A stretch of DNA of 64,000 bases from Desulfobulbaceae bacterium (lineage in GTDB: Bacteria; Desulfobacterota; Desulfobulbia; Desulfobulbales; SURF-16), in the NCBI GenBank assembly GCA_024637145.1, contig JAGXFQ010000041.1:62001-126000 (forward strand), written 5' to 3'. The translations under genes were made by a program, and so were the position numbers. Positions 36,203 through 52,920 of this stretch are shown one piece after another; within the stretch, counting starts at the first letter, position 1; every line of letters begins with the position of its first letter. Below the pieces are notes generated by a model, which saw only the letters and a program-made list of their open reading frames with translations, was not told where the DNA came from and did no database searches.

Positions 36203-36214
36203 GAGGATATATTA

Positions 36215-37471
36215 ATGAAGACATTTACCGCACAGGGCTTTCAGCCTGTTGATCAACTTACGAAGCCGGGATCCCGGACAGAATGGACCCTGAAGGAAAA
36301 ATTGCTCCTGGGGCTCAGTCCCGGCGATTATCTGAAGCAGCTTGTCCGCAATCCCCTGAACTGGGTTTTTGCGATCATTTATGCCATTGGCCTGCCCATT
36401 CTGGTCGGCCGCTTTTATTATGGACTGGGCTGGGCCACCCACAGCAGTTATGATTATCCCTGGGGGCTTTTTCTGGGCTGGGGACTTTTCTGTATGGTGC
36501 CTCTTTCCGCCTCAGGCTTTATGCTGGGGACCACGGTGGAGCTTTTTGGCCGCAAAGATTTCAAGCCCATTGAAAGACTGGGACTCCTCAATGGTCTGCT
36601 CGGCTATCTGTTTGCCGTTATCTTTCTGCAGGTGGATCTGGGACAGCCCTGGCGCCTGATCTACCCCATGTTTGTTTCCCTGGGACCGGCAGCAGTCCTT
36701 TTTCTGGTGGCCTGGCATGTCGCCACCTATCTCACTGTCCAGGTTGCCGAGCTTGTGCCTGCCGCCAGTGAGATGATGGGGTGGCAGAAGCCCAAGAAAT
36801 TTGTCAAATCCATTGTTCTGGGCCTGACGGTGTCCGGTATCATTCTCTCCACCCTGCATCAGGGTGCCCTGGGGGCGCTCTTTACCTATGCGCCCGGCAA
36901 GGTGCATCCCCTCTGGTATAATTATAGCTTTCAGTGGTTCCATTTTTTCTGCTCATCTATTTTTGCCGGGCTTTCCATGCTGATTGTTGTCTCCACCCTG
37001 TCAAAATGGTTCCTGGGGTGGCGCTGTGACGCCAACTTCCTCAAAAATCTTGACCGCATCACCTTGGGTCTTGCCAAAGGGGCCTCTCTGGCTCTTATTA
37101 CCTATTTCGTTATCAAGTTGACGGCCATTGCCCATGATAATGAATGGGCCCTGTTGTTCACCGGCTGGGGGCAATGGTATATCTTTGAGATCTGCTTCGG
37201 TGTGCTCCTGCCGCTCTTTCTCTATACCAGCGCCATCAGAAATCAGAGTGTCAGGGTTGCCCGTTTTGCCGCCTTGTTTGCCGTACTCGGTATTGTGCTC
37301 AATCGTCTCAATACGGCCCTGATTACCTATAACTGGCAGTTGTATCAGGAAATTCCTCATTGGCGTGAGATTGTCATTACCATTACAGTGTACGCCACCT
37401 ATATCCTGGTCTATCGTGCCTGTCTCTGCCGTTTACCCATCCTCTTTACCTGGAAGTCTGATTCCAAATAG
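36215..37471 (+). CDS. NrfD/HybB-type quinone-reactive membrane protein
   Basis: 418 residues with about ten membrane helices, matching the HybB/HmcC branch of the NrfD family. Features include the initial cytoplasmic segment LSPGDYLKQLVRNPLNWVF, YDYPWGLFLGWGLF, the helix with QVDLGQPWRLIYP, and ILSTLHQGALGALFTY. Such subunits bind menaquinone and exchange electrons with an attached ferredoxin subunit; they hold no cofactor of their own. It completes the cytochrome - ferredoxin - NrfD operon. A GAGGAT site precedes the ATG. Confidence 0.9.
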   Translation: MKTFTAQGFQPVDQLTKPGSRTEWTLKEKLLLGLSPGDYLKQLVRNPLNWVFAIIYAIGLPILVGRFYYGLGWATHSSYDYPWGLFLGWGLFCMVPLSASGFMLGTTVELFGRKDFKPIERLGLLNGLLGYLFAVIFLQVDLGQPWRLIYPMFVSLGPAAVLFLVAWHVATYLTVQVAELVPAASEMMGWQKPKKFVKSIVLGLTVSGIILSTLHQGALGALFTYAPGKVHPLWYNYSFQWFHFFCSSIFAGLSMLIVVSTLSKWFLGWRCDANFLKNLDRITLGLAKGASLALITYFVIKLTAIAHDNEWALLFTGWGQWYIFEICFGVLLPLFLYTSAIRNQSVRVARFAALFAVLGIVLNRLNTALITYNWQLYQEIPHWREIVITITVYATYILVYRACLCRLPILFTWKSDSK

Positions 37472-39510: not shown

Positions 39511-41283
39511 TCAACCCCTGGCTGGATTGATAATGGCCTGCATATCGCGATGGTTGATGGTCTCTTTTTCCAGGAGCACCAGGGTTATGGCCTCCATGAT
39601 TTCACGGTTATCAGTCAGGATCTGGCGCGCTGTGTCATGGGCGGTGTCAATAAGAGCTCTGATCTCGCCATTGATTTCCTGGATCGTCTCCTCACTGACC
39701 AGCGGCCGTGAGGCGCCTGGTTGCTCAGAGGCCTTGAAGACGAGGGCCCCGATATTCTTACTCATGCCCCACTCGCAGACCATCTTGCGGGCCAGATCAT
39801 TCACCCGTTCAATGTCATTGCCTGATCCGGTGGTTATTTCATCAAAGATGAGTTCTTCAGCAACACGGCCGCCGAGAAGGATGCAGAGGTTGTTGAAGAG
39901 GTAGGTGTATGAATGGGAGTGTTTTTCCGTTTCAGGCAACTGCATGGTGAGGCCCAGTGCCTTGCCCCTGGGCACAATGGAAACCTTGTGAACCGGGTCA
40001 GCGCCGGGAAGCATCCAGGCCACCAGGGCATGGCCCACTTCGTGGTAGGCGGTGATTCTTTTCTCCTCCACGGTGATGATCATGGAACGGCGTTCCGCCC
40101 CCATCATTACCTTGTCCTTGGCGATCTCGAGATCACTGATGGTGACCTCGCCGCCCCGGCGGGCCACCATCAGGGCGGCTTCATTAATCATGTTGGCAAG
40201 CTCCGCCCCTGAAAAACCGGGAGTGGATTTTGCCACCATCTTCCAGTCAATATCGGTGGCGGCCTTGATCTTCCGGGCATGAACCTTGAGGATCTGTTCA
40301 CGGCCCAAGACATCGGGGAGGGGCACAAGGACCTGGCGGTCAAAGCGCCCAGGTCTGAGCAGGGCCTGGTCAAGGATGTCAAGGCGGTTTGTGGCGGCCA
40401 CAATAATAACCTGATCGTTCACCTCAAAACCGTCCATTTCCACAAGAAGCTGGTTCAAGGTCTGTTCCCGTTCATCATTGCCCCCGGTGGCCCCTGAGCT
40501 GCGGTGGCGTCCCACGGCGTCAATCTCATCAATAAAGATGATACAGGGCGCCTTTTTTTTGCCTTCGGCAAAGAGATCCCGGACGCGACTGGCGCCGATC
40601 CCCACGTACATCTCAACAAAATTAGAGCCACTGATGGAAAAGAAGGTGACCCCTGCCTCACCTGCTATGGCCTTGGCCAGCAGGGTCTTACCTGTTCCTG
40701 GCTCACCGTAGAGGAGGACGCCCGTGGGAATACGGGCACCTGCCTCGGTGAATTTTGTCGGATCTTTGAGGAAGTCGACGATTTCGACTAGCTCTTCTTT
40801 GGCCTCGTCTATGCCGGCAACATCTTTAAAGCGCACTGTGGACTGCTGGCAATCAAAGAGCTGAGCCTTGCTCTTGCCGAAGGCCATGGCCTTGCCATCC
40901 TGGTTACGGCCTTTGCGTATGAAGAAGAACCAGATCGCCGCCAAGATAAGAAGGGGGGACCAGGAGAGGACGATGCGCAAAAACCAGTGGGGTTCAGAGC
41001 TGGGAATAATCTCGAATTTGGCGCCGGCATCAATAAAAGGCTGAACCGCGGCAGGGTCTTCAGGGATTGCGGCGCGAAAGCGTTCGCCATTGGAGTTCGT
41101 CCAGGTGGCGCTGGTTTTATGCAGTGAGAAGTTCGTCACCACGCCATTTTTTACCTTGTCGACAAAATCAGAGTAGGTGAGAACATTGACCGTCTCAGGC
41201 TGACCTTTGAAAAGATTGAGAACAAGGATGGCAGTGAGACCGATGATGAGCCAGATGGTGAGATTCTTGTAGAAAAGATTCAA
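39511..41283 (-). CDS. ftsH: ATP-dependent zinc metalloprotease FtsH, copy 2
   Basis: 590 residues, the same length as the copy at 32191 but clearly divergent. Two membrane helices (about 7-24 and 104-121) flank a periplasmic domain; the AAA domain has [20 protein letters not shown] and [18 protein letters not shown]; the zinc motif reads HEVGH instead of HEAGH. Ends with [16 protein letters not shown]. It is convergent with the histidine kinase (stop-to-stop about 40 bp). Membrane protein quality control is the expected role; two paralogues 7 kb apart flank the cytochrome operon. Confidence 0.95.
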
Positions 41284-42197
41284 GGGCGTACTCCAGGTAG
41301 GGGCGGAAATGGGCGTGTTTTACGCCGGTCATAGTGGCGGGCCCATTGGCAACAGGTTTGTTGATCGCTACATAAGAATAAGAACAAAGAGATCCGTCAA
41401 GGCGCACAATACAATATAAAAGCCTGAGAGGGTAAGGAAAATGAGGATTTGGAGCTGAAAAAAAAGAACCCCCGGGCCGCCACCCAGGGGTTCACTACAA
41501 GGAATCGCTTTCTCGTTTTTGGAAAATGAGTAAAAACTTAATTGTAGTAATAGCAATTTATGTGCCTGGAATTAATGGGATATTTTTTTGGCCAAAAAAA
41601 CAATGCAATATCAAGATGTTAATTTTATGGGGTGGTTTTTGTCCGGTATGGTTGCTGAGGGAGAGTGGTGGCTTGTTGGCTTATTGTGCGCCCATATAGT
41701 TGTTGATGGCGCAATATTAGTCATTTTTGCTCTGCACTCCTGCGGCGTTCTTCAGCTGTGGGAAGTAGTTGCAAAAGAGGCGGTTTTGTATTATTAAATC
41801 TTTGTTATTTCGACATAAATGGTATATTCAGGTTTCTGGTTATAGTGGAAGTTGCGTTCGTGCCAATATCTTAATATGATAATTTTGGCAATATGTTGCT
41901 TCTTTTATTGTTTAAAAGTTGACAGTGCCAATTTATATGTTTAGAACAAAATTCAAAGGGTCAAAAGTTTTGATCTTAGGATAACCACATTAACAGAGGA
42001 GGAATTGGGAGTAGGGCTTGAGGAGCAAGGGAAATTCGGAGCGGGGACCCGCCAGTCTGCGAACCGATGGAAATGTTCAAGACATTTCAGTCCCGACCAA
42101 GGAACCATGCGTTTCATTTTTTCAGTTCAGGAGCTCTCTTGGTAGGAGGAGTCTTGGCTGTGGGCTGCATGGGCACAATTTTTATAAGGAGGAGCAC
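41284..42197. other. Intergenic region upstream of NrfD module B
   Basis: About 900 bp, AT-rich from 41560 to 42000. Contains a hairpin gaacccc/ggggttc (41466-41493), a possible but unsupported 60-70-residue frame near 41588-41797 that starts with TTG and has no ribosome-binding site, and a folded-looking leader (42037-42110). The promoters for ftsH copy 2 (minus) and for module B (plus) must lie here. Confidence 0.45.
42037..42110 (+). promoter_or_regulatory. Putative structured leader of NrfD module B
   Basis: GGGAC (42044-42048) can pair with GTCCC (42090-42094), enclosing GAAATG-TTCAAGA-CATTTC (42070-42088) and the sequence ccgccagtctgcgaaccgat. It looks like a compact multi-stem RNA, faintly like cobalamin-type leaders (gggaa...cccgcca), but no riboswitch consensus is met. 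It lies 100-150 bases before the first start codon of the module. Confidence 0.3.
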
Positions 42198-42323
42198 ATG
42201 GAAGGCGTATTATTTCTCGTTTTTTGGATTGGTTGCGCTGCACTCCATACCTTGTTTGACCTGAAGGTCAAACCTGCAATTCTGGCATGTCGTGAAGATG
42301 AAGAGAATTTCCGGCATTTCTAA
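42198..42323 (+). CDS. 41-residue single-span membrane protein
   Basis: A tiny protein with one membrane helix (VLFLVFWIGCAALHTLFDL) and a charged tail (CREDEENFRHF). Its AAGGAGG site five bases before the ATG is among the best in the window, which is the main reason to call it. The frame is open further upstream, but only this start has a site. It lies 92 bp before the NrfD gene at 42415. A 77-residue membrane protein holds the equivalent position before the paralogous NrfD gene at 50305, so both may be small accessory subunits. Confidence 0.65.
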   Translation: MEGVLFLVFWIGCAALHTLFDLKVKPAILACREDEENFRHF

Positions 42324-42414
42324 AAAAGTAGCAGAGAATTGTTTTGAGAAATGAAGCGGGTCGCTTGGTTGCTTCCGGCGGAATATGAAAAATCAAAAAG
42401 GGAGGAGTTCGGTA

Positions 42415-43608
42415 ATGAATAATATTCTCGCAAAGGTACTGCCCCAGGATCAGGGGCTGGAAGTTTCTGCTTCCGGAAAATATAATATCGCCATAGGCCT
42501 GATGGGTCTGTTGGCGCTTGTTGGGGTGGCAGCGGGTTTCCATGCCTTTTATATTGGGCACGACCATGCCTTTGGCAATACCCGTGAGGTACCATGGGGG
42601 CTGTTGATTGCGGCCTATGTTTTCTTTGTGGTGACCTCCACCGGACTTTGTCTGGTTTCATCCATTGGTCACGTCTTTGGTTTTGAGCAGTTTAAGCCCA
42701 TTGCCAAACGTTCCGTCTTCATGGCCATTTCCACCATTATTGCCGGTTTTGTGGTTATCGGGTTTGAGATTGAGAACCCCTGGCGCATGGCTATCTATAA
42801 TATTACCTCCCCGAATCTGACCTCCAATATCTGGTGGATGGGCACCCTTTATGGCGCCTATCTTTTTTTCATGCTCATTGAGTTTGCCTTGCTGCAGATG
42901 GGCAAGCACAAGGAGGCTGGTATCTTGGGCATGCTCGGCGTTGTTTCAGGTATTGCCGCCCACTCAAACCTTGGCGCTGTGTTTGGTCTTCTTGGCGGCC
43001 GGGAGTTCTGGCATGGACCCTATATGCCTATTTACTTCATTACCTCTGCCATGATGTCCGGCTGTGCTGCTGTGGTGTTTTTCACCTGGATCGCCTACAA
43101 GTCCAATGGCTGGGAGATGAGTGAAAAGCTGAAAAGTTCCCTGAGCTCCACAGCCAAATTGGGTGCCTTGTTGATCACGGTCATTATGTTCTTTACCTGC
43201 TGGAAGATGATTTCCGGGGTAAGCGGTCAGCCTCCTGGAAAATATGAGGCCGTGATGAGCCTCATCTCCGGTCCTTATTCGGCAAACTTCTGGATTGGCG
43301 AGGTCATGATGGGGCTGGTAATCCCCCTGGCCATTATCCTTGCTGTCCGCGCCAAGTCCATGACCGGACTCTTTATTGCCTCTGTCTCCAGCGTTATTGG
43401 TATCTTTTTCATGCGCTATGATCTGGTTATTGTCGGCATGCTCGTGCCCCATTTTCATGGCATGGGTATTGTTGATCTTCCCCATCTTTTCCCCTATACG
43501 CCAACCTGGCACGAAATTGCCATTGTGGCCGGGGCCATGGGGCTTTGCGGGATGATGTTCCTCTTGGGTGAGCAGCTCTTTAAGGGCCATCTTTCTGAAG
43601 ATCATTAA
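42415..43608 (+). CDS. NrfD-family membrane protein, module B
   Basis: 397 residues with about ten membrane helices. It belongs to the NrfD/PsrC/DsrP branch, distinct from the HybB type at 36215, and is a clear paralogue of the protein at 50305: both have REVPWG / REMPWG with VTSTGLCL-like helices, GFEIENPWRMAIYN, NIWWMGTLYG and the late FMRYDLVIVGMLVPH helix. These proteins exchange electrons with menaquinone. The ATG at 42415 has GGAGGAG seven bases upstream. No ferredoxin or cytochrome gene accompanies it directly; the nearest such pair is at 47708-49043. Followed by a hairpin and a MerR gene. Confidence 0.88.
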   Translation: MNNILAKVLPQDQGLEVSASGKYNIAIGLMGLLALVGVAAGFHAFYIGHDHAFGNTREVPWGLLIAAYVFFVVTSTGLCLVSSIGHVFGFEQFKPIAKRSVFMAISTIIAGFVVIGFEIENPWRMAIYNITSPNLTSNIWWMGTLYGAYLFFMLIEFALLQMGKHKEAGILGMLGVVSGIAAHSNLGAVFGLLGGREFWHGPYMPIYFITSAMMSGCAAVVFFTWIAYKSNGWEMSEKLKSSLSSTAKLGALLITVIMFFTCWKMISGVSGQPPGKYEAVMSLISGPYSANFWIGEVMMGLVIPLAIILAVRAKSMTGLFIASVSSVIGIFFMRYDLVIVGMLVPHFHGMGIVDLPHLFPYTPTWHEIAIVAGAMGLCGMMFLLGEQLFKGHLSEDH

Positions 43609-43631
43609 TTCCTCCTCGGAAGTCTGATGTA

Positions 43632-43670
43632 CAGGGTGTGGACGGCCGCCATCCAGCCGCCCACACCCTG
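43632..43670. promoter_or_regulatory. Hairpin between NrfD (module B) and its MerR gene
   Basis: CAGGGTGTGG (43632-43641) and CCACACCCTG (43661-43670) pair perfectly. It separates the NrfD stop from the MerR ribosome-binding region and mirrors the hairpin at 51525-51561 in module D. It may be a partial terminator, processing site or, as DNA dyad, an operator. Confidence 0.55.
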
Positions 43671-43699
43671 CCGATGTTAAAGATTTTACGGAGGACGTT

Positions 43700-44146
43700 A
43701 TGGTGCGAAAGAAGACAGAGGTGAAGCCCTTAAAGGCCGATCTGCCCATATATCCCATCGGAGTGGCAGCAAAGCTTCTGGGTGTCCATCCTCGAACCCT
43801 GCGGATTTATGAGAATGAGGGTCTGGTGAGGCCGGCTCAGCATAATGGCTCACGGCGCTTGTATTCATTGAATGATATTAAATGGATTGAATGTCTGCGC
43901 TCCATTATCCATGACCAGGGGATCTCGATTCCCGGCCTTAAAAAGCTTTTGACCCTGGTCCCCTGTTGGGATGTGGCAGAGTGCCCGCAGGCGGTTCATG
44001 GCTGCTGCGAGGCCAAGGTCGACTGGGCTGTGCCCAGGTCATTACACAGGGTTGGGGATGAAGAGGACCGGAAGCGGGCCAAGGCCCAAGACGGACAAAA
44101 GCAGAAAAAGGTAGTTTCTGGAAAAAAGCAAGTGTCACCTGGGTGA
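43700..44146 (+). CDS. MerR/HspR-like regulator with cysteine motif, module B
   Basis: 148 residues. The winged helix reads YPIGVAAKLLGVHPRTLRIYENEGLVRP, then RRLYSLNDIKWIECLRSIIHDQGIS. After the dimerisation helix comes LVPCWDVAECPQAVHGCC, i.e. C-W-x3-E-C with further cysteines about 7-8 residues on, and a basic tail. The paralogue at 51591 shares this pattern exactly (TPCWNIAEC...QC). The PCW-x4-C pattern recalls the two-CW cysteine motif and could bind a metal, Fe-S cluster or react with redox signals. It probably controls the adjacent NrfD genes. Confidence 0.85.
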   Translation: MVRKKTEVKPLKADLPIYPIGVAAKLLGVHPRTLRIYENEGLVRPAQHNGSRRLYSLNDIKWIECLRSIIHDQGISIPGLKKLLTLVPCWDVAECPQAVHGCCEAKVDWAVPRSLHRVGDEEDRKRAKAQDGQKQKKVVSGKKQVSPG

Positions 44147-44225
44147 TTTTTGGTGGTAAGCGGTCTGCTGGCGTTGCGGCAAAAAAAGCCTGCGCCTGAA
44201 GTGGGACTGTTCCTCCAGGTGAGAA

Positions 44226-44277
44226 GTCACAAAAAAAGGGGAGGACGTTTGCAAACGTCCTCCCCTTTTTTTGTGAC
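44226..44277. terminator. Bidirectional terminator, perfect 52-bp palindrome
   Basis: Arms of 26 bp: gtcac, seven A, ggggaggacg and ttt meet at the centre TTTGCAAA. Seven A on one side and seven T on the other give each strand a U-run, fitting its place between the convergent merR (plus) and sigma54-type regulator (minus) genes. Confidence 0.92.
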
Positions 44278-44297
44278 GGATATCTTTGGCCGCAGAG

Positions 44298-46694
44298 TTA
44301 TGTGCTGTCGTCAGGGGAGATATGGTACCTGCTGATCTTTCGGCGCAACGTGTCCTTGGAGATCCCTAGTTCACGGCAGGTTGCCATCTTTTTCCATTTG
44401 TTTCTGGCCAAAGAGGTGGCAATGGCGCTTTCTTCAATCTCCGCCAGGGAGGGTGAAGATCCTGTGGTGGAGAGCACCGTGGCGGGCCGCCTTTCCTTGT
44501 CGTCAGTGGGGGCAAAAGGTTCAGGTAGATGTTCGGGTTGGATGAAGCCCCCTGGGCAGAGAATAAAGGAATATTCGATGATATTTTCCAGTTCGCGGAT
44601 ATTGCCTGGAAAGTCGTAATGCATGAGGATGGAGAGGGCCTCATCAGAAATCCCGACAATATCCTTGCCCTGCCTGGCACTGAAGGTGGAGGTGAAATGT
44701 TGAATGAGAAGAGGGATATCCTCCATCCTTTCGCGGAGGGGCGGCAGCTGTATCTTGACCACATTGAGACGATAAAAGAGATCTTCGCGGAAGGCATCTT
44801 CCTTGACCAGGGCCTGGAGATCCCTGTTGGTGGCGGTGATGATGCGGACATCTGCCTTGACCGGCTCGTTTGAGCCCAATGGCTCATACACCTTCTGCTG
44901 CAGGACCCTGAGGAGTTTTACCTGGAGAGATGGGGGGATGTCGCCAATTTCATCCAGAAAGATGGTGCCCCCTTCAGCAGCGGCAAAGCGTCCTTTCTTG
45001 TCCTGTTTGGCATCGGTAAAGGCCCCGGCCTTATAGCCGAAAAGTTCTGATTCCAGAAGGGTGTCGGGCAGGGCCCCGCAATTCACCGTGACAAAGGGTT
45101 TGTTGCTGCGCGCTGAGGCATTGTATATCGCCCTGGCCACCAACTCTTTGCCCGTACCGCTGGCCCCCAAAATCAGGACATTGCTGGGGCTGCGGGCAAT
45201 CTCCGGCAGGATGTTGAAGATGCGCTGCATGGATGGGCTCTTTGAGATAATCTCATCAAAGGTGTAGCGCATGGTGAGCTGCTTGCGCAGGCTGTCCAAG
45301 ACGGAAAGGTCGCGGAAGGTTTCCACCCCGCCCAGGACATTTCCTTCATGGTCCAAAAGGGGGGCCGCGCTGATGGAGATGGGCAGGCGCTTCCCTGCCC
45401 TGGTTTCAATGGAAATAGAGCGATTGGTGACGGGTTTGCCGCTGTACATCGACTGGGCGATGGCGCAGGATTTGCCGCAGATGGATGAGTGAAAAACATT
45501 GCTGCAATATTTGCCGATAGCATCGTCGCGGTGCCAGCCGGTGATCAATTCGGCGGCCCTGTTAAAGGAGGTGATCTGCCAGTTGCGGTCCACGGTAAAA
45601 ACCCCGTCAGCAACCGAATCAATGATCATGTCGTTTTTGATGGTGTCCGTGATGTCGCGAAAGGTCTCCACGCCGCCGATGACATTGCCCTCATGATCCA
45701 AGAGGGGGGCGGCACTGATGGAGATGGGAACGGTGGTTCCTTCTTTGCTTTTTATAAAGATGGAACGATCAACAATTTCTTTGCCCAGGTCAATGGCGTG
45801 ATTGAGTATGCATTCTTCGCCACACACTGAAGAGTGAAAGATGTTGCCGCACCGTTTGCCGATGACATCTTCACGTTTCCAGCCGGTAATGGTCTCAGCG
45901 GCGCGATTGAAGGAGGTAATGTGCCAATCCTTATTCACCGTGAAGACGCCGTCGGCAACCGAATCCAGAATGAGATCGTTTTCCATGGTGGCGGTGATGT
46001 CGCGAAAGGTCTCCACGCCGCCAATGACGTTGCCGCCGGGATCAAGGAGAGGGGCCGCAGAGATCGAAATAGGTATTTTGCGGCCATTTTTGGTGGTCAC
46101 ACTCAGGGTGTGATTGACGATGGTATTTTTATCTTGGATGGATTTCGCCAGGCTGCATTGGTCGCCGCACATGCTTGACTGGAAGATCTCCTGGCATTTA
46201 TGGCCCAGCACTTCTTGGCGAGACCAGCCGGTGATAATCTCGGCGGCCTTGTTAAAGGAGGTGATATGCCACTCCCTGTCCACGGTAAAGACGCCATCGG
46301 CAACCGAGTCCATGGCCAGGTCATTGGTGTGGCTTGTGCCTTCCACCTCGCTCAGGGTGATGACCGCCCCGTTTGTGTTGCCGTTTACGTCTGGAATGGG
46401 AATGGCGGCAATGATAACCGCGATGGAGGTCTTGGTGTCAGGGTTGTCAATGACCATTCTGAAGTCAGTCATGGCATGGCCGGAGGCCAAGGGGCCATAA
46501 AGGCTGCACATCTGGGTAAAGCGTTCGTATTTACTAAAGGCTTCCTGGCAATTTTTGCCAATCATCTCCTCTTTTTTGAGGCCCAGCAGCTTTTCGGCGC
46601 CACTGTTAAAGGAGGTGATCTCCCAGTTGTCATTGACCGTGAAGATGGCATCGACAACCTTTGCCTGGATATTTTGCTTAGGGGTATTATTCAT
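44298..46694 (-). CDS. Multi-PAS sigma54-type regulator with altered GAFTGA loop
   Basis: About 798 residues. Four PAS domains in series: the first (IFTVNDNWEITSFN) is followed by three near-identical units of about 125 residues, each with C-x8-C-G-x2-C: HKCQEIFQSSMCGDQC, KRCGNIFHSSVCGEEC, KYCSNVFHSSICGKSC. Then an AAA+ domain: GASGTGKE, ELFGYKAGAFTDA, GGTIFLDEIGD, and a Fis-type helix-turn-helix (MATCRELGISKDTLRRK). The sigma54-contact loop reads GAFTDA, not GAFTGA. No receiver domain is present, so it senses directly. Start uncertain: the ATG at 46694 directly before PAS 1 is taken, but the frame is open to a GTG at 46805. Confidence 0.88.
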   Translation of the reverse strand: MNNTPKQNIQAKVVDAIFTVNDNWEITSFNSGAEKLLGLKKEEMIGKNCQEAFSKYERFTQMCSLYGPLASGHAMTDFRMVIDNPDTKTSIAVIIAAIPIPDVNGNTNGAVITLSEVEGTSHTNDLAMDSVADGVFTVDREWHITSFNKAAEIITGWSRQEVLGHKCQEIFQSSMCGDQCSLAKSIQDKNTIVNHTLSVTTKNGRKIPISISAAPLLDPGGNVIGGVETFRDITATMENDLILDSVADGVFTVNKDWHITSFNRAAETITGWKREDVIGKRCGNIFHSSVCGEECILNHAIDLGKEIVDRSIFIKSKEGTTVPISISAAPLLDHEGNVIGGVETFRDITDTIKNDMIIDSVADGVFTVDRNWQITSFNRAAELITGWHRDDAIGKYCSNVFHSSICGKSCAIAQSMYSGKPVTNRSISIETRAGKRLPISISAAPLLDHEGNVLGGVETFRDLSVLDSLRKQLTMRYTFDEIISKSPSMQRIFNILPEIARSPSNVLILGASGTGKELVARAIYNASARSNKPFVTVNCGALPDTLLESELFGYKAGAFTDAKQDKKGRFAAAEGGTIFLDEIGDIPPSLQVKLLRVLQQKVYEPLGSNEPVKADVRIITATNRDLQALVKEDAFREDLFYRLNVVKIQLPPLRERMEDIPLLIQHFTSTFSARQGKDIVGISDEALSILMHYDFPGNIRELENIIEYSFILCPGGFIQPEHLPEPFAPTDDKERRPATVLSTTGSSPSLAEIEESAIATSLARNKWKKMATCRELGISKDTLRRKISRYHISPDDST

Positions 46695-46884
46695 GAGGGG
46701 TAGTTGCTGTGGCGAAACAGATCTTGCTGCTGCATACTGGGGAAAAAAAACGGGTGGGAAGATCATGTTGTCAGCAGAAATGGTCAGCTGATCTTTACAG
46801 GTCACTTTAGTCGTTCAGGCCCCGCTGGTCAACGAACTTTGCTCTTTGTGGGAAAAGAGGAGATCTTGGGCGAAGGGGATTTGC

Positions 46885-47250
46885 TCAAATCATGGTGAGT
46901 GGGGGGTGCTGCCTGCTGTGGCAGGCAATAAACTCCTGGAGTTTTATTTTTTGCTCCTCTGAAAGGGATCCGAATTTCAGGGCATGGCGCCAGCGGTGGC
47001 TGTTGTCTGGGTTCACTTCTTCAGGGTAAAGAAGGGAGCAGGGGATCTGTTCAATGAGCAGGGTGGAGTTGTCAAGAAGAAGATCGATCTTGAAGGCGCC
47101 TGTTGGCCAGTTGTTGCCGGTAAGATGATGAAAGGATAATCCTTTTATGCTGATGTCGATCAATTCTCCTGATCCGTCAGGGCAAAAGAGAAGGGATTGG
47201 TCGTTAATTTCAACGCGGTCTTCGTGGCGGTCGGGGAGGGCTCTCTCCAT
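46885..47250 (-). CDS. PilZ-domain c-di-GMP-binding protein
   Basis: 121 residues. The c-di-GMP signature is visible as R-x3-R (RHEDR) near the start and D-x-S-x2-G (DISIKGLSF) about 25 residues later, followed by the beta-barrel strands (FKIDLLLDN, IPCSLLYPEE, RHALKFGSLSEEQ). The ATG at 47250 has CAGGAGA upstream, better than the ATG at 47283. It lies just upstream of the multi-PAS regulator on the same strand, 190 bp away, so the two may be co-regulated. Target process unknown. Confidence 0.85.
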   Translation of the reverse strand: MERALPDRHEDRVEINDQSLLFCPDGSGELIDISIKGLSFHHLTGNNWPTGAFKIDLLLDNSTLLIEQIPCSLLYPEEVNPDNSHRWRHALKFGSLSEEQKIKLQEFIACHSRQHPPLTMI

Positions 47251-47707
47251 GGCAGTTCTCCTGAGGGGAAAAGGCGTATTCATGGCTCATCTTGAGCAGC
47301 GTATTTATACTAAAATAAGTAAGAACAAAAAAGTCAAAAAAATTTCTTATTTAATTGAAGTTCTTGCTCAATTTAGTGGTATGGCTGTGGAGATAATGCC
47401 TTGAGGTTTGTAGGCGGCGGCACCCTGTTTTGGAGAAAATATTCTTGACAGTGGCCCTCTTTTATGCTTGCATGCATGGCGCAAACTACACATGTGTAGT
47501 TTGCAATAATGTCACCATTGGGTCCATTGTCAAAGGCTCAGCCTTTTTGAGGTTCAAGATCTAAGGGTGTGACGGATGTCGGGGTGGTGGATTTCAATGT
47601 CACTACCTGACATGGCCCAGGTGTCGTATTTGGTCTCGGTCTGTTCAGGTGGTTATGGTTCTGAGGTGTGTAAACATGAAGTTATCTTACTTATAAGGGA
47701 GTAACGA
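47251..47707. other. Intergenic region upstream of the ferredoxin/triheme operon
   Basis: About 450 bp between the divergent PilZ gene and the ferredoxin gene. The notable element is the 24-bp palindrome at 47481-47504. A TTGACA box at 47445-47450 lies just upstream but no well-spaced -10 box is evident. A frame at 47147-47404 on the plus strand overlaps the PilZ gene and is not supported. Confidence 0.45.
47481..47504. promoter_or_regulatory. 24-bp palindrome, candidate operator
   Basis: GCAAACTACA-CATG-TGTAGTTTGC is a perfect dyad, 204 bp before the ferredoxin gene and 230 bp after the PilZ start. Its lack of a loop and of a T-run favours a protein-binding site over a terminator. MerR-type proteins bind such dyads, but no link is shown. 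Confidence 0.55.
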
Positions 47708-48466
47708 ATGAAAGTTAAAGATTTGGAGAAGCTCGAAAATGAGGGAGTAGAGGCGCTACCTTCTGAAGAGCGGCGTCGTTTTTTGCAATTCGGCCTTTCT
47801 GTTACGGGGGTCTTTTTGGGTGGAACTGTCCTCTCTCTGACCTCGGCAAGAAATGCTCAGGGTGCCTTGGGCGGCATGCGTCCTGCTACCAAATTTCCCT
47901 ATAGTCCTCATTATACAATGGTTATGCGTCAGAATCATTGTATTGACTGCGAACGTTGCCTGGTGGCATGTAAAAAAACCAATCATGTTCCTGCCTATGG
48001 TTATCGTACGACAATCCTTGAGCAGGAGCGTCCCATTGGTCCTGATCAGAATGAAAGAATCTTTATGCCCGTTCTGTGTAACCAGTGCAACCGGCCTCCC
48101 TGCGTCCGTGTTTGCCCGACCTCTGCTACCTATAAGGATAAGGTGACCGGTATTGTCATGATGGATTATAAGCGTTGTATTGGCTGCAAGACCTGTATGG
48201 CAGCCTGTCCTTATAATGCCCGTTATTTCAAAGAGGAAAACAGGGCTGTTGATAAATGTAACTTCTGTGCCGATACCAAGCTCAAAGAATCCAACGGTAA
48301 GATCACCGCCTGTGCTGAGGCCTGTCCCGCTGGCGTTCGTGTCTTTGGAGATCTTACTGATTCCACCAGTAAGGCCTATAAGCTGATTCATGCCCCGGAA
48401 AAGGTTGTTTGGGTCCTGCGTCCGGAGACCGGTGCCCTTCCTAATGTTTTCTATATGAACGACTAG
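47708..48466 (+). CDS. Tat-exported 4Fe-4S protein, DsrO/NrfC-like
   Basis: 252 residues. The Tat signal ERRRFLQFGL lies at about 22-31. Four cluster motifs follow: CIDCERCLVAC, CNQCNRPPCVRVC, CIGCKTCMAAC, and CNFC...CAEAC, typical of four-cluster electron-transfer subunits such as DsrO, NrfC and PsrB. Unlike the HybA-like protein at 35273 it has no C-terminal membrane anchor. It is followed by a triheme cytochrome and, 1.8 kb on, by a NrfD protein, giving the J, O and P types of the DsrMKJOP complex without M and K. AAGGGAG precedes the ATG. Confidence 0.9.
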   Translation: MKVKDLEKLENEGVEALPSEERRRFLQFGLSVTGVFLGGTVLSLTSARNAQGALGGMRPATKFPYSPHYTMVMRQNHCIDCERCLVACKKTNHVPAYGYRTTILEQERPIGPDQNERIFMPVLCNQCNRPPCVRVCPTSATYKDKVTGIVMMDYKRCIGCKTCMAACPYNARYFKEENRAVDKCNFCADTKLKESNGKITACAEACPAGVRVFGDLTDSTSKAYKLIHAPEKVVWVLRPETGALPNVFYMND

Positions 48467-48608
48467 GCACTCTTGTTCTGGTAATTGTATAGGGTTATTT
48501 TTTTTCAATAGAGCGGAAAAGATTCGATCTTGTCGTTTTTCCTGGGTCGATTTACTTAGCAGGTGTTTCAGGGTTGGAATATCTGCTAAAACATACATGA
48601 GGAATGCA

Positions 48609-49043
48609 ATGAAATTTAATGATAAGAGCGCTCAGAGCTTGTTGACTATTTTGGTGTTTGGCGCAGTCCTATTCTTCAGTGCCGGCCACGCGGTTGGTGA
48701 AGAGTATGATGAGGATACCTATGGTCCAGAAGAGCCCATTATTTTTGTGAAACCAGTTAAGGCCGTTGATTTTTCTCACAAGGTCCACACCATGGGGGCG
48801 GGACTTGAATGTGACAGCTGTCATGATGATATTTTTGAAATGGAAGCTGGTGCTGCTGAGCAGAATGATGATTTCACCATGGAGTCATTGTATGACGGCA
48901 AGTATTGCGGTGCGTGTCATGATGGGGAGATGGCCTTTGCCTCCAATAAGCGCTGTACCTTCTGCCATATCGGCGTAAAAGGTTATGAGCGCCTTCAGGG
49001 TGACGGTGGCGCTGCTGATAACGGTCATGGCGGTGGTCATTAA
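48609..49043 (+). CDS. Periplasmic triheme cytochrome c
   Basis: 144 residues. Signal peptide (about 1-29, ending GHAVG), then a c7-like triheme domain with CDSCH, CGACH and CTFCH, and VDFSHKVHTMG, whose histidines are probable distal ligands. The tail is rich in Gly and His (GHGGGH). The ATG at 48609 is preferred, with GAGGA 6 bases upstream; an ATG at 48597 is possible. It follows the Tat ferredoxin by 142 bp and is closed by a strong terminator, so the two form a unit that should move electrons in the periplasm. Confidence 0.88.
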   Translation: MKFNDKSAQSLLTILVFGAVLFFSAGHAVGEEYDEDTYGPEEPIIFVKPVKAVDFSHKVHTMGAGLECDSCHDDIFEMEAGAAEQNDDFTMESLYDGKYCGACHDGEMAFASNKRCTFCHIGVKGYERLQGDGGAADNGHGGGH

Positions 49044-49076
49044 GGACCTTTCTGGCGGCTGATGTGCTGCTTGCTC

Positions 49077-49113
49077 AAGGCATGGTGACATTCTGGTCAC
49101 CATGCCTTTTTTT
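49077..49113 (+). terminator. Terminator after the triheme cytochrome
   Basis: Stem aaggcatggtga / tcaccatgcctt around a short loop, followed by seven T. Confidence 0.92.
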
Positions 49114-49938
49114 ACTTTTTCACCCCCTCCTCTTGTGGTGCGTGGGTCTCTTCTCTCTTTCTTCTTCCGCTCCTCTCTTTGCTCGCGCCCTGGCGCTTTT
49201 TTGCTCTTGTCTTGTAAGCTCCCCTGTGCAAGATAACCTCTAAACGAGAGGAGGGCGTTTCTGGTCCATTCTTGTAAAAAGTCATTTTCATGTTTTGGTA
49301 ATTTCAACGGCAGTTCACCCGTAAGCTCCCAGGGCTTTTGCGGTGGTTTTATGCTGGCCCAGGGCGGTGCCTTTTATGACAAATACCTGCGATCTCATTG
49401 TAGAAATTTGTTAGAGCCAGGGGCATTCTCCTGCCTGGCATGCCTCCTGTGCCGCCCTTACGCGGCGATGAATGGTCTCTCTGTGTGTGGCGCAACGTGC
49501 GCCTGTTCACAGTGGTCTTAGTTGTATCCATCTGTTTTTGTGTATTTTGTGTCTGGCGTAGTTTGCCGGATAGGCGTCTCTCTTTGGCCCCTGTGCGGCA
49601 ATATCCGGCTATATTGCCATCAATCAGGGCGCATGTTGCGTTGTGTGTCCGGGGGCTGATGACGCAACATGCGCCTTCAGTTGTAAATAATATATAAACT
49701 TGAGTTGTAGTTTTATGCTGTAAAGAAATATTTATACTGAAACCTTTCAACGATAGTATGGGGGGTTATGGCGTTTGGGCTGGGGAATTGCAGAGTTTTC
49801 GTCCGGTCTGGCATATCATTTGCTAGATAACAAGACAACAAAGAAAACAGGTAGCAACCTGAAACGAGAAATACCCCTTTCAAGCGGCCCTGGTGATTAC
49901 CTACCATATATCACCAGGGAAAAAACAGGAGGCCGGTC
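49114..49938. other. Intergenic region rich in inverted repeats
   Basis: About 825 bp with no supportable gene. Related motifs occur three times: GGCGCAACGTGCGCC near 49488-49502, GCGCATGTTGCG at 49629-49640 and its complement CGCAACATGCGC at 49663-49674. Another pair, GCCGGATA / TATCCGGC, spans about 49567-49604. Frames in this stretch follow the repeats and have no ribosome-binding sites. Confidence 0.5.
49629..49674. repeat. Inverted repeat, 12-bp perfect arms
   Basis: GCGCATGTTGCG and CGCAACATGCGC around a 22-base loop, with a third related copy (cgcaacgtgcgcc) about 140 bp upstream. No T-run follows. Confidence 0.75.
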
Positions 49939-50172
49939 ATGAGCACCTTGATACATCTGCTCAGTAAAAACCAGGGATTAAGAGGGAAGGCATATTGGCT
50001 TGCGGGTCTTGGCAAGCGTTTTGCCCGCTTAAGCGAGGCCTTTTGGTTTGTGACCTCTCTGGTGCTCTTTGTGGTTCTCGGTCCTTTTTCAGCCATTGTC
50101 GCCCTGATTGCTCTCGGCTCCTTGGCCAGAAAAGACCAGACCAAAGATTTGCAGAGACCGGCTAAGTGCTGA
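49939..50172 (+). CDS. 77-residue membrane protein before NrfD module D
   Basis: A small protein with a basic, amphipathic N-terminus (1-32), one or two closely packed membrane helices (about 36-62, FVTSLVLFVVLGPFSAIVAL) and a charged tail. CAGGAGG six bases before the ATG strongly supports it. I do not recognise the family. It lies 132 bp before the NrfD gene at 50305, mirroring the 41-residue membrane protein before the NrfD gene at 42415, and could be an accessory subunit of that complex. Confidence 0.68.
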   Translation: MSTLIHLLSKNQGLRGKAYWLAGLGKRFARLSEAFWFVTSLVLFVVLGPFSAIVALIALGSLARKDQTKDLQRPAKC

Positions 50173-50304
50173 TCTGCTTGATGTCATCAGGACTAGGTGG
50201 CGGCCTGCCTGGTCATGATGACTGTCGCTTGGGAGATGTAAAAAGCAATGTAGCCAGAGCGGCTACCCAAATAAGCTGTTTATCAATTTAGAGGAGGAAT
50301 CAAA

Positions 50305-51489
50305 ATGGCTAACGGATTTTCACTAGCCGCCGTGGCGGAACCAGAGGTGGCAACACCTAGAATCAACATGGTAACAGGTCTTTTTGCTCTGCTTGCTGTG
50401 TCAGGCATTTTGGCAGGTCTGTATGCGTTCTACGCTGGCCACCATAATATGTACAACAACACACGGGAAATGCCCTGGGGGATTCTGATTTCCTCCTATG
50501 CTTTTTTCGCAATAACCTCAACAGGCCTTTGTCTCTTGGCCGCCATCAGCCATATCTTTGGTGGGAATAAGCTGGCTCCTCTGGCAAACAGGATGGTCTG
50601 GCTCTCCATTATCACCATCATCGGCGCCTTCACCCTCATCGGCATGGAAATTGAAAACCCTCATCGGATGTTGATCTATAACATCCTGAGCCCAAATCTC
50701 ACTTCCAACATCTGGTGGATGGGCACCCTTTACGGTATGGCTGTCGGCTTTATGCTCCTTGAGTTCTTCCTTATTCTCAACAAGCAGTATAAGATCGCCA
50801 TTACCCTGGGTGTTCTCGGCGCCCTTGCCGAGGTTGCCGCCAACACCAATCTGGGGGCGGTTTTTTCAACGCTTTCCGCGCATCCTTTCTGGTACGGTTC
50901 TCAGCTGCCTATTTATTTCCTTGCCAGTGCCTTTATGTCCGGTGCTGCGGCAGCCATCCTTTTTACCAGCATGGCTTTCAAGATTCGTCATCGTGAAGTG
51001 GATAGCACCACCATGGCTGCTCTGCAGTCTGCCGGCAAGGTCCTCACCCTGACCCTTTTCCTAGTCGCTGTGGCCACGGCCTGGAGATTCATCTCCTTCT
51101 TCGTGGGCGGTGCTGAAGGCGGTCGTGTGGCTGCCTTGGCCCTTACCTCTGGACCTCTGGCCATCAACTTCTGGATTTTTGAGATCCTCATCGGCCTGGC
51201 CTTCCCCTTGGGTCTTCTGGCTATGACCAAGTTAAAGAGTGTACCTGCCATGACCCTGGCAGCCTTGATGACCCTGGTTGGTCAGTTTTTCGCCCGCTAT
51301 GACTTGGTTATCGCCGGTCAGATGGTGCCCCACTATGCTGGTTGGGATAATCTTCCCACCTACTTCAGCTATGTCCCTTCTGTTTCTGAGTTCATGGTTG
51401 TTTTGGCCGGCATCGGCGTGGTTGGCGCCACCTTCCTGCTGGGTGAGCGATTCTTCGGTCGTGCCTTTGACGACCATGGCTCTCACTAA
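50305..51489 (+). CDS. NrfD-family membrane protein, module D
   Basis: 394 residues, about ten membrane helices, paralogue of the protein at 42415: shared landmarks are NTREMPWGIL, STGLCLLAAISHIFGG, GMEIENPHRMLIYN, NIWWMGTLYG, NTNLGAVF and ARYDLVIAGQMVPH. DsrP/PsrC-like quinone-reactive subunit. Together with the Tat ferredoxin (47708) and triheme cytochrome (48609) it could make a DsrJOP-like complex passing electrons between menaquinol and periplasm. GAGGAGG precedes the ATG. Followed by a hairpin and a MerR gene, as in module B. Confidence 0.88.
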   Translation: MANGFSLAAVAEPEVATPRINMVTGLFALLAVSGILAGLYAFYAGHHNMYNNTREMPWGILISSYAFFAITSTGLCLLAAISHIFGGNKLAPLANRMVWLSIITIIGAFTLIGMEIENPHRMLIYNILSPNLTSNIWWMGTLYGMAVGFMLLEFFLILNKQYKIAITLGVLGALAEVAANTNLGAVFSTLSAHPFWYGSQLPIYFLASAFMSGAAAAILFTSMAFKIRHREVDSTTMAALQSAGKVLTLTLFLVAVATAWRFISFFVGGAEGGRVAALALTSGPLAINFWIFEILIGLAFPLGLLAMTKLKSVPAMTLAALMTLVGQFFARYDLVIAGQMVPHYAGWDNLPTYFSYVPSVSEFMVVLAGIGVVGATFLLGERFFGRAFDDHGSH

Positions 51490-51524
51490 GGGCAGCTGTA
51501 GCTCCTAGAGTTCTTTTGGAAAGC

Positions 51525-51561
51525 AGACGGAGAATCTGCTGTACGAGCAGGTTCTCCGTCT
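51525..51561. promoter_or_regulatory. Hairpin between NrfD (module D) and its MerR gene
   Basis: A 15-16-bp stem (agacggagaatctgct with agcaggttctccgtct, one T-G pair) around a 5-base loop, between the NrfD stop and the MerR ribosome-binding site. Same position as the hairpin at 43632-43670. Confidence 0.6.
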
Positions 51562-51590
51562 CACTCAAACCCCAAAAAAGGGAAGGCATC

Positions 51591-51962
51591 ATGCTCTCAG
51601 ACAATAAAGCTATCTTTACAATCGGTGTTGCGGCAAAGATGCTGGAGGTGCACCCGCGGACCCTGCGAATCTACGAGCAGGAGGGTCTGATCAGACCTGT
51701 CAGAAAGGGGAAATGGCGTTATTTTACCATGGATGATCTCAAGTGGGTCGAGTGTTTGCGTAGCATGATTCACGACAAAGGTATTTCCATTGCCGCCATT
51801 AAAAAGCTGCTGCAATATACCCCCTGTTGGAATATCGCTGAATGTTCTTTTGAAAAGCGCAAGCAGTGTACCGCCTTTATGTCCAGTGGCCTGGTACCCA
51901 AAAAAATCGAGCTTGAGCAACCCAAAAAGATTGCCAGCTCCGATGGCGATGTGGCTGTCTAG
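51591..51962 (+). CDS. MerR/HspR-like regulator with cysteine motif, module D
   Basis: 123 residues. FTIGVAAKMLEVHPRTLRIYEQEGLIRP and WRYFTMDDLKWVECLRSMIHDKGIS match the module B regulator closely. The C-terminal motif is YTPCWNIAECSFEKRKQC, i.e. P-C-W-x3-E-C and a further Cys eight residues on. It lacks the long basic tail of its paralogue. ATG at 51591 follows GGGAAGG. It probably responds to a redox or metal signal and controls the NrfD genes; this is inference from position and cysteine pattern. Confidence 0.86.
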   Translation: MLSDNKAIFTIGVAAKMLEVHPRTLRIYEQEGLIRPVRKGKWRYFTMDDLKWVECLRSMIHDKGISIAAIKKLLQYTPCWNIAECSFEKRKQCTAFMSSGLVPKKIELEQPKKIASSDGDVAV

Positions 51963-52380
51963 TTCTTTTTTGAGCAGGCAGTCGCTTGCCTCCTTTCCCT
52001 TCTTTGCCTATTCTTCGTCAATTGCCCTGAGTTCTCCTCTGTGTAAGGGCCTCTTCTTGGCCAACTTCCCTCTCCTCTTTTATTGATAACCACAGCCTGG
52101 GGAGCCCGGGCTGTTTGAGGAGTTTTGGTCTTCTCCCTGCTCTGTGAAAAACCTTTTGTTCCCTGGGTTAATTAGGCGTAAGGTCGTGGGACTGCGACGC
52201 ACCGTGGGTCAAATAACAAGAAGCACCAACCCCGTCTCCTTTTTCAGCCCAAGGCCACAATGGCTAGGAAGCCTTTTTTTTTCTTGAGGGCGTGGAGGTT
52301 GGTGTCATATTTATCAGAAAACAGTATGGTCTGACTTTGGTTTTTGAGAAAGGATTTGCTTTCAGCTATGGAGGGGGATA
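51963..52380. other. Intergenic region
   Basis: About 420 bp. Contains a cagcc...gggctg hairpin near 52092-52112 and several pyrimidine-rich stretches. No frame with a ribosome-binding site was found before 52381. Confidence 0.4.
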
Positions 52381-52920
52381 ATGGCCACCACGTTCTGCCG
52401 AGTTTTCATATATCTCTATGCTCTTATGCTGCTGGCGGCACTGGTCGGGTGCGGGCGCCATGAAGTGCGGGTCATGGAGACCACCGCCTATTGCGGCTGT
52501 CAGCAGTGTTGCGAATGGCACCGGGGCAGCTGGTCCTTGCTCAAGCTCAATTTCTGGGATCGCTATGTGAGTGGAGGGGGAAACAAGGGCAAGGAGTATA
52601 CCGGGAAAACGGCCAGTGGCGCTGTGCCGCAAGAAGTCTCGGCCGGCCTCTTTTCCGTGGATAGTGTTACCCATCCCTGGAAGATTCCCTTCCGTGTCGT
52701 TCTGCCCTGGTTATGGCTGGCAAATGAGGGGACTATTGCCGCTGATACCAGATATTACCCTTTTGGGACGCGGATGAAGGTGCCGGGCTATGGTTGGGGC
52801 AAGGTGACTGATCGTGGCGGCGCCATCAAGGGGCCGGAGAGACTTGATCTCTATTTTGATTCCCATCAGGACGCCCTGGAGTGGGGGAGAAGAAGGGTCA
52901 AGGTCATAATTAAGCGGTAG
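52381..52920 (+). CDS. 3D-domain lipoprotein
   Basis: 179 residues. A signal peptide with lipobox LVGC (Cys24) predicts a lipoprotein. The 3D domain (double-psi barrel with three conserved aspartates) is seen from ETTAYCGCQQCC through GTIAADTRYYPFGTRM, GKVTDRGGAIKG and RLDLYFDSHQDAL; the three Asp are in AAD, DRG and DLYF. Such domains occur in lytic transglycosylase-like and resuscitation-factor-like proteins that act on peptidoglycan. Cysteines in CGCQQCCEW are unusual. A GGAGG site precedes the ATG. Confidence 0.85.
   Translation: MATTFCRVFIYLYALMLLAALVGCGRHEVRVMETTAYCGCQQCCEWHRGSWSLLKLNFWDRYVSGGGNKGKEYTGKTASGAVPQEVSAGLFSVDSVTHPWKIPFRVVLPWLWLANEGTIAADTRYYPFGTRMKVPGYGWGKVTDRGGAIKGPERLDLYFDSHQDALEWGRRRVKVIIKR

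Follow-up and report, generated by a model that had tools for sequence, protein, structure and literature searches.

Organization of the locus

We analyzed a stretch of 64,000 nucleotides, called the window throughout, from the genome of a Desulfobulbaceae bacterium (assembly GCA_024637145.1, contig JAGXFQ010000041.1, positions 62,001 to 126,000 of the forward strand), in which the same order of genes occurs twice, namely a small membrane protein, an NrfD-type membrane subunit, a hairpin and a MerR/HspR-like regulator. This repeated order had been described by a reading of the sequence alone and was confirmed by the analysis, with the genes located where the sequence-only reading had placed them. 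The source genome measures 2.86 Mb and is 86% complete, and the nearest named relatives of the window, as judged by NrfD2, are metagenome-assembled genomes (MAGs), several of them labelled Desulfobulbaceae or Desulfurivibrionaceae.

Module 1 consists of mic1, NrfD1, a hairpin and MerR1, and module 2 of mic2, NrfD2, a hairpin and MerR2, mic1 and mic2 being the two small proteins. The DNA between the modules encodes a divergent four-PAS sigma-54 activator, a PilZ-like protein (19.2 bits, under the cut-off of 22.5), a ferredoxin with a twin-arginine translocation (Tat) signal and a triheme cytochrome (Table 1). Both small proteins are preceded by strong ribosome-binding sites, AAGGAGGAGCAC-ATG and CAGGAGGCCGGTC-ATG, as had been proposed. 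MerR2 most likely starts at ATG 51591 rather than at 51516, because the latter start would put the hairpin within the gene.

Table 1. Genes and sequence elements of the two-module locus, in window coordinates (bEBP, bacterial enhancer-binding protein; pLDDT, predicted local distance difference test).
Feature	Position	Strand	Basis or remark
FtsH paralogue (FtsHb), divergent from module 1	39511-41283	-	PF01434 219.0 bits; PF00004 156.5 bits
FtsHb leader hairpin, loop UGGCGG, 11-bp stem	41466-41493	-	hairpin scan; covariance model
Module-1 leader hairpin, loop CCGCCA (42049-42054)	42045-42058	+	weak 4-bp stem with one G-U in the window genome
mic1, 41-residue single-pass membrane protein, conserved LHT-x2-D	42198-42323	+	sequence; family searches
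NrfD1 membrane subunit; alternative start ATG 42415	42385-43608	+	PF03916 118.1 bits
NrfD1-MerR1 intercistronic hairpin	43632-43670	+	folding z-score against shuffles
MerR1, HspR-like helix-turn-helix and cysteine tail	43700-44146	+	profile scores; alignment
Four-PAS sigma-54 activator (bEBP), divergent; start probably near 46694	44298-46805	-	PF00158 236.0 bits; four PAS stretches
Tat-signal ferredoxin subunit, DsrO/NrfC/TtrB-like, 16 Cys	47708-48466	+	profile scores; sequence
Periplasmic triheme c7-type cytochrome	48597-49043	+	PF14522 57.8 bits; TIGR04257 76 bits
Palindrome GGCGCA-N3-TGCGCC, candidate bEBP enhancer site	49489-49503	.	palindrome search
Imperfect GGCGCA-N3-TGCGCC copies	49628-49642; 49661-49675		2 mismatches; 1 mismatch
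Sigma-54 promoter motif TGGCATATCATTTGCT	49809-49824	+	kept upstream of NrfD2 in relatives
mic2, 77-residue single-pass membrane protein, SE.FWF....LF...GPFS	49939-50172	+	sequence; family searches
NrfD2 leader hairpin, loop UGGCGG (50198-50203)	50194-50207	+	weak 4-bp stem with one G-U in the window genome
NrfD2 membrane subunit	50305-51489	+	PF03916 101.8 bits; model pLDDT 84.0
NrfD2-MerR2 intercistronic hairpin	51525-51561	+	folding z-score against shuffles
MerR2, HspR-like helix-turn-helix, C55 and tail C79-x5-C85-x7-C93	51591-51962	+	profile scores; alignment

Conservation of the gene order

The NrfD-MerR arrangement is found well beyond a single strain, as the order recurs in many relatives, including members of other families in the phylum. 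Searching named genomes with an NrfD alignment returned 330 relatives, and the best 79 loci were kept and annotated with the window proteins; these loci are related to each other and a few overlap (e.g. L106 and L259). In the annotated loci the recurring order, with variations, is mic1-NrfD1-MerR1, followed at some distance by DsrO-like ferredoxin-triheme cytochrome-mic2-NrfD2-MerR2. Within the same family, a MerR match was obtained in 16 and an NrfD match in 17 of 22 genomes. A profile of the cysteine-bearing regulators (Cys-MerR) matched 117 of the 242 genomes of the order (E-values up to 1e-12) and 69 of 395 genomes of the phylum (E-values up to 1e-18), and NrfD-MerR pairs outside the order occurred in families f43, f69, f75, f78, f79, f91, f105 and f113 (40 fetched loci).

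Among 146 genomes of the order, the NrfD1 type was present in 59, the NrfD2 type in 67 and both in 54, while a separate NrfD2 lineage accounted for 18 further genomes (genera g20 and g27, and G005). These lists were compiled by hand from the match listings: six more genomes matching NrfD1 at 49-56% identity were kept out of the NrfD1 count; lineage, not identity (56-60% to the query), was the criterion for separating the 18 genomes, and identities of 54-60% also occur among the 67 NrfD2 genomes. A missing NrfD1 may reflect an assembly gap, because the genome stretches come from fragmented MAGs. At the level of the genome, irrespective of adjacency, a Cys-MerR was present in all 59 NrfD1 genomes, in 64 of the 67 NrfD2 genomes and in none of the 18 genomes of the separate lineage.

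Two variants of module 2 were observed. One locus (L070, G009:C66) carries mic2-NrfD2-MerR2 twice in tandem with equal NrfD2 scores, and in one lineage (L142, L150, L155, L106 and others) the mic2 homologue follows MerR2 instead of preceding NrfD2.

NrfD subunits and their putative periplasmic partners

Both NrfD proteins passed the Pfam cut-off for the NrfD family (25.8 bits), and their 46% identity across 379 columns identifies them as paralogues, in agreement with the sequence-only reading. When 39 NrfD1 and 81 NrfD2 rows were aligned, twenty polar or aromatic positions were conserved to at least 90% in both types and 23 positions were fixed to different residues. In the predicted model of NrfD2 the nearest solved fold was ActC (template modeling (TM) score 0.82 at best), followed by ActF (0.62). 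The small proteins are unrelated to each other: no BLASTP alignment was returned between them and paralogy was rejected. No match was found for mic1 in Pfam or NCBIfam, and mic2 had none in Pfam and only matches far below cut-off in NCBIfam.

The best NCBIfam models for the ferredoxin were TtrB (171.1 bits), NrfC (165.8 bits) and DsrO (161.1 bits), none of which reached its cut-off. Sixteen cysteines lie within the matched stretch in 55 of the 56 seed ferredoxins and three CxxCH motifs are present in all 58 seed cytochromes. Annotated loci mostly contain one ferredoxin-cytochrome pair, which accompanies NrfD2 only in L327, L333, L334 and L336 and NrfD1 only in L326, whereas L240 has one pair for each NrfD. 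The earlier proposal that the ferredoxin and the cytochrome could serve either NrfD protein is supported, and it is mainly because the pair occurs with either protein alone, or once with each, that we take the two NrfD types to be interchangeable on a common arm.

Since the two genes co-occur so frequently, a single complex holding both NrfD proteins together with the ferredoxin and the cytochrome has to be considered, by analogy with ActC and ActF of alternative complex III; one subunit would bind quinone and the other would only conduct protons. The usual presence of a single ferredoxin-cytochrome pair and the order of the nearest folds, ActC and then ActF, are consistent with such an assembly, ActF being described in a review as the sole NrfD-like subunit for which a second one in the same complex is known (PMC8076601). 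The loci with the pair and just one NrfD type, together with the locus having one pair per NrfD, argue against it, as do the twenty conserved positions, which are retained in both types and not lost in one. We therefore regard the single complex as rather unlikely.

Regulators with four conserved cysteines

MerR1 and MerR2 are 48% identical and, as suggested from the sequence alone, paralogous. HspR was the best NCBIfam model for both (72.1 and 62.8 bits), under its cut-off of 105, and the SoxR model scored 18.8 and 22.8 bits against a cut-off of 116.9. The predicted structure comprises a MerR/GlnR-type domain with GlnR, NmlR and SoxR among its fold matches, and a tail modeled with low confidence (pLDDT under 50 in residues 96-122).

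The shared tail motif P-C-W-x3-E-C held in part: the strict string occurs in only 15 of 42 distinct MerR1 and 7 of 78 distinct MerR2 sequences, while the looser PCW-x4-C is found in 41 and 67 of them, respectively. In the remaining sequences CW follows S, A or G, CHE replaces CW, or the sequence itself is truncated or broken. The cysteines themselves are conserved in the orthologues, since C55, C79, C85 and C93 (MerR2 numbering) do not vary in any of the 40 rows of alignment A3, and the two divergent MerR1 rows left out of that alignment also show all four. C55 (W-x2-C) falls in the DNA-binding domain and the other three form the tail C79-x5-C85-x7-C93. No Pfam family matched the cysteine tail above cut-off, and with the two-CW domain (NF045718, cut-off 35 bits) the MerR2 tail gave no match and two relatives scored 13.6 and 10.9 bits. 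The regulators form a cysteine class for which no named family was found in Pfam or NCBIfam, and their cysteines make redox or metal sensing plausible.

Members of the wider Cys-MerR class have other neighbors. Some adjoin pentaheme cytochromes with a NapC/NirT-type part (5 of 5 tested pass PF03264, with NrfH below its NCBIfam cut-off), others adjoin unrelated genes such as Mrp-like ATPase/nitroreductase clusters and molybdenum-cofactor-like genes (named by eye; L223-L262), and in many the first PCW motif is followed by another.

Palindrome counting in the upstream regions revealed no HspR-type operator. It returned GCGCA-N3-TGCGC before mic2 (9 of 41) and mic1 (5 of 35) as well as repeats restricted to particular lineages before DsrO, such as TTGACA-N8-TGTCAA in 14 of 57. 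A perfect palindrome of 24 bases, GCAAACTACACATGTGTAGTTTGC, lies upstream of the ferredoxin gene of the window (47481-47504), and other lineages carry other palindromes at this place.

Promoters and intercistronic hairpins

A sigma-54 promoter motif precedes NrfD2 in 69 of 82 loci, versus 12.0 expected from shuffles. The corresponding figures were 3 of 34 before mic1 (4.5 by shuffles, i.e. not above) and 14 of 55 before DsrO (10.8, i.e. little above), the conserved sigma-54 promoter being confined to module 2. GGCGCA-N3-TGCGCC palindromes with 0-2 mismatches lie about 130 to 320 bases above this promoter, both in the window and in close relatives; the neighboring four-PAS activator is the obvious candidate to act at them. 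Three of its PAS domains repeat the cysteine pattern C...F.SS.CG..C, which may give the activator its own redox or cluster site. Below the promoter (49830-49935), close relatives have in common an ACAGGTA..AACCTGAAACGAGAAA-like sequence together with a hairpin, the loop of which (CCTACC) could pair with an upstream GGTAG in a possible pseudoknot; the mic2 leader of other families contains ACGAGAA repeats.

The sequence-only reading had suggested a self-contained unit that was duplicated. This is not supported: as a rule the two modules have the iron-sulfur and cytochrome partners in common, their small proteins show no relationship, and the sigma-54 promoter belongs to module 2 alone. These differences between promoters and between small proteins, together with the 23 positions fixed differently in the two NrfD types, might instead suit two independent enzymes acting on different substrates and merely adjacent, with the ferredoxin and the cytochrome serving one of them only. 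We consider this improbable, given that the modules are tied by conserved synteny, by high co-occurrence and by the complementary leader hairpins described below.

Stable hairpins separate each NrfD gene from its MerR gene, as first noted from the sequence, with z-scores of -5.2 and -4.8 against 60 mononucleotide shuffles, which, like all hairpin shuffles used here, preserve base composition only. In relatives the hairpin is kept with changed sequence, z-scores falling below -2 in 66 of 77 NrfD2-MerR2 and 20 of 29 NrfD1-MerR1 intervals (40 or 60 shuffles each). They are unlikely to be terminators, because no T run follows them in the window; they may rather act in mRNA stability or processing and thereby keep NrfD and MerR at different levels. 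In the gap between MerR1 and the activator gene (44222-44278) there is a strong inverted repeat flanked by A and T runs, likely a bidirectional terminator, for which Rfam matches were weak and below gathering score.

Leader hairpins with complementary loops

The most unexpected part of the locus are the hairpins in the leaders of module 1, of NrfD2 and of FtsHb, since the loop CCGCCA of the first and the loop UGGCGG of the other two are exact complements in 6 of 6 bases. In a census of 6-base loops on stems of at least 9 pairs across 1.9 Mb of loci, some of them overlapping, UGGCGG ranked first (34 of 1179) and CCGCCA second with 30, partly the same DNA on the other strand, the next loop occurring 7 times. 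The CCGCCA hairpin was found in 35 of 44 mic1 leaders, or 29 without the six that are the FtsHb-side hairpin from the opposite strand (L102, L119, L129, L147, L156, L245), and UGGCGG in 0 of 44. Conversely, the UGGCGG hairpin was present in 52 of 98 NrfD2 leaders and in 15 of 19 FtsHb leaders, and CCGCCA in none of either set. Shuffles gave at most 0.6 for each of these counts, and before the other genes of the locus (DsrO, activator, MerR1, MerR2) either loop occurred in 0 to 3 of 48 to 81 leaders.

The bare hexamers were distributed in a similar manner. CCGCCA occurs in 36 of 49 distinct mic1 leaders (230 bases), tied for first with ribosome-binding-site hexamers and with its complement in 0; UGGCGG is tied for first in FtsHb leaders (20 of 23; complement 5) and eighth in NrfD2 leaders (58 of 106; complement 10). 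Cells with G-U outnumbered those with A-C in the mRNA sense for the three leader hairpins (41:8, 28:12 and 7:3), which makes it most likely that the structures form in the RNA of these transcripts. Inversion of module 1 (e.g. in L154, L159, L162) leaves the mRNA-sense loops complementary. Of the 47 distinct loci that contain the two genes, 26 carry both hairpins, 1 the module-1 hairpin only, 5 the NrfD2 hairpin only and 15 neither (Fisher 2.8e-7, kinship ignored). A cultured bacterium, Desulfogranum japonicum (L131), is among the relatives that possess the two modules along with both hairpins. At the genome level, the NrfD2 hairpin is found in 35 of 54 genomes with NrfD1 versus 1 of 31 without, and in that one (G018) the contig ends at the activator gene. 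Two FtsH-type proteases are encoded within 10 kb on opposite strands (32191-33963 and 39511-41283), and the second is the one that bears the UGGCGG leader hairpin.

The stems in alignment A4 had been picked for length, hence their 100% pairing is by construction, and the covariance model R1 was trained on such hairpins. When the 150 best candidates per genome were scored with it in 13 genomes, the FtsHb hairpin came out on top in six. Its 30 hits included 6 FtsHb hairpins and 2 NrfD2 leaders; a further 12, which were inspected, lie inside open frames of at least 100 codons, and 10 fall outside the inspected set. The window's own NrfD2 hairpin did not reach an E-value of 1 in this search. Rfam 15 returned no match at gathering score in 41200-52400, where a chance-level match to MicX (19.7 of 75 bits, E 0.93) overlaps the FtsHb hairpin, and across seven loci only a tRNA at that score. 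A genome-wide search with GGTGGCGGCC gave 160 hits versus 23 for the reversed control. There was no sign of a dispersed hairpin among the 16 of 30 stored GGTGGCGGCC places that were readable (two sites twice), all of which lie in open frames with stems of 2-4 bp; at the remaining 14 the pattern was not seen in the stored orientation and they were left out.

A serious competing explanation, which we judge somewhat short of an even chance, is that the leader hairpins are no pair at all, each being a separate protein-binding or mRNA-stability hairpin, or both deriving from one palindromic repeat inserted both ways. The loops are invariant and therefore offer no covariation, and a repeat inserted in both orientations would yield complementary loops automatically. 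On the other hand, the orientation is fixed for each gene, no wrong-way hairpin being found among 44, 98 and 19 leaders, inverted module 1 included; the hits of the covariance model offer little in favor of a scattered repeat, and the presence of the hairpin tracks the partner gene. Searches of the literature for mRNA-mRNA kissing loops in bacteria turned up one paper, on Staphylococcus aureus, and none on kissing leader hairpins in Desulfo-type bacteria, which is weak evidence as most of the subscription literature lay outside these searches.

Comparison with known systems

The triheme cytochrome, the Tat ferredoxin and the NrfD-type subunit resemble DsrJOP of the DsrMKJOP complex. The locus differs from it in staying under the NCBIfam equivalog cut-offs (161.1 bits against 200 for DsrO; 45.5 and 22.8 bits against 350 for DsrP) and in having two NrfD genes, MerR regulators and small proteins. 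No DsrM or DsrK was recognized by eye among the frames of the window, with no model search made, and a DsrJOP-like triad of triheme cytochrome, ferredoxin and NrfD lies elsewhere in the genome on another contig (L001, by eye). A displaced DsrMKJOP is unlikely in view of the scores below cut-off and of this second triad.

The nearest published locus that we found is the dsrOhPh-tetrahaem and TMH1 locus of cable bacteria, a proposed route from quinone to the periplasm, which according to the excerpted text shares a stand-alone DsrO/DsrP-like pair, a periplasmic cytochrome and a small one-helix protein (PMC13047784). Its cytochrome has four hemes in that text, unlike the three CxxCH motifs seen here; a second NrfD is not described in the excerpt, and the terms MerR, HspR and 'transcriptional regulator' are absent from the main text (PMC13047784). 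Alternative complex III, to which the NrfD2 model is closest through ActC, holds two NrfD-like subunits (PMC8076601). The present locus departs from it in encoding a triheme cytochrome and a ferredoxin of 252 residues instead of a pentaheme ActA and a large ActB, and in placing its two NrfD genes in separate transcription units. The combination of a ferredoxin with an NrfD membrane module is likewise shared with the Hmc, Qrc and Ttr/Psr/Nrf modules, although none of the NCBIfam cut-offs is reached by the ferredoxin, and no molybdopterin subunit was recognized by eye in the window. A third NrfD module lies upstream (35234-37471), with an HmcB-like ferredoxin (387.6 bits, cut-off 420) and an HmcC-like NrfD (353 bits, cut-off 550).

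The regulators have the MerR-type helix-turn-helix of HspR, SoxR, CueR and MerR, from which they are distinguished by the score below the HspR cut-off and by a cysteine set of their own. Rrf2-type iron-sulfur regulators (IscR, NsrR) resemble them in having three cysteines with a first spacing of five, whereas the second spacing is seven in the locus regulators, where a cluster is putative. The DNA-binding fold of the Rrf2 type is unrelated to the MerR type. No paper joining NrfD with MerR in Desulfobulb or sulfate-reducing bacteria, nor any on NrfD with a triheme cytochrome in Desulfobulbaceae, was found in the literature covered, again weak evidence since the subscription literature lay mostly outside it.

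A proposed pair of alternative NrfD subunits for one electron-transfer arm

The arrangement is real and widely conserved, and it most likely provides two alternative NrfD subunits of one quinone/cytochrome module under separate control. In its full form, which further couples the choice of subunit through the leader hairpins, we regard this proposal as evenly poised. The Tat ferredoxin, of the four-cluster DsrO/NrfC type, and the triheme cytochrome would constitute a shared periplasmic arm, on which either NrfD1 or NrfD2 would dock as the quinone-facing membrane subunit, each with its own small single-pass protein; we infer the assembly of this complex, its use of quinone and the direction of its electron flow. 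Module 1 and the ferredoxin-cytochrome pair would be transcribed from promoters lacking the sigma-54 motif, and module 2 from the sigma-54 promoter, presumably driven by the divergent four-PAS activator. The hairpin before each MerR gene most likely gives the regulator a lower or more labile level than NrfD, and the regulators most likely read the redox state, or a metal or iron-sulfur cluster, by means of their four cysteines and would feed back on their own unit.

The complementary mRNA hairpins hint that one version of a respiratory complex may be exchanged for another. In many lineages with two modules, the CCGCCA hairpin of the module-1 mRNA could kiss the UGGCGG hairpins of the NrfD2 and FtsHb mRNAs, which could couple the choice of subunit to subunit production and turnover. 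A switch operated by direct pairing of the leaders, with the FtsH paralogue possibly removing the outgoing subunit and a new class of four-cysteine MerR proteins reporting on redox or iron-sulfur state, is a tentative extension that we hold to be doubtful at present.

Several observations weigh against the proposal. NrfD2 is also present in 54 of the 59 genomes with NrfD1, so frequently that one complex holding both may still be envisaged, as in alternative complex III. As to the hairpins, 18 of the 31 genomes lacking NrfD1 are essentially one lineage, outside of which 1 of 13 has the NrfD2 hairpin, and 19 of the 54 genomes with both genes lack it at the threshold used. On the NrfD2 tree, independent pairs gave about 4.5 in agreement, 0 in disagreement and 2.5 without difference for the module-1 hairpin (median p 0.06), 4.4, 0 and 1.6 for the NrfD2 hairpin (p 0.125), and 3.3, 0.3 and 3.5 for the bare hexamers (p 0.25); the informative pairs nearly all agree, but their small number does not allow significance. 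The loops never change together and thus show no covariation at the bases proposed to kiss, any other complementary loop pair occurring in 0 of 42 loci and the standard pair in 23 of 42. In the window itself both module hairpins are weak and only the FtsHb hairpin is strong. As to the regulators, the wider class is looser: among members not beside these NrfD genes, L229, L238 and L246-L250 have no equivalent of C55 and L225 differs in tail spacing. Finally, no operator was identified for MerR1 or MerR2, whose targets and ligand are here putative.

The locus offers a conserved case, open to experiment, in which a single electron-transfer arm has two NrfD subunits that appear interchangeable, and the four cysteines of its regulators invite direct metal analysis. 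If the leader hairpins do pair, they would represent an mRNA-to-mRNA control conserved across much of a bacterial order and beyond.

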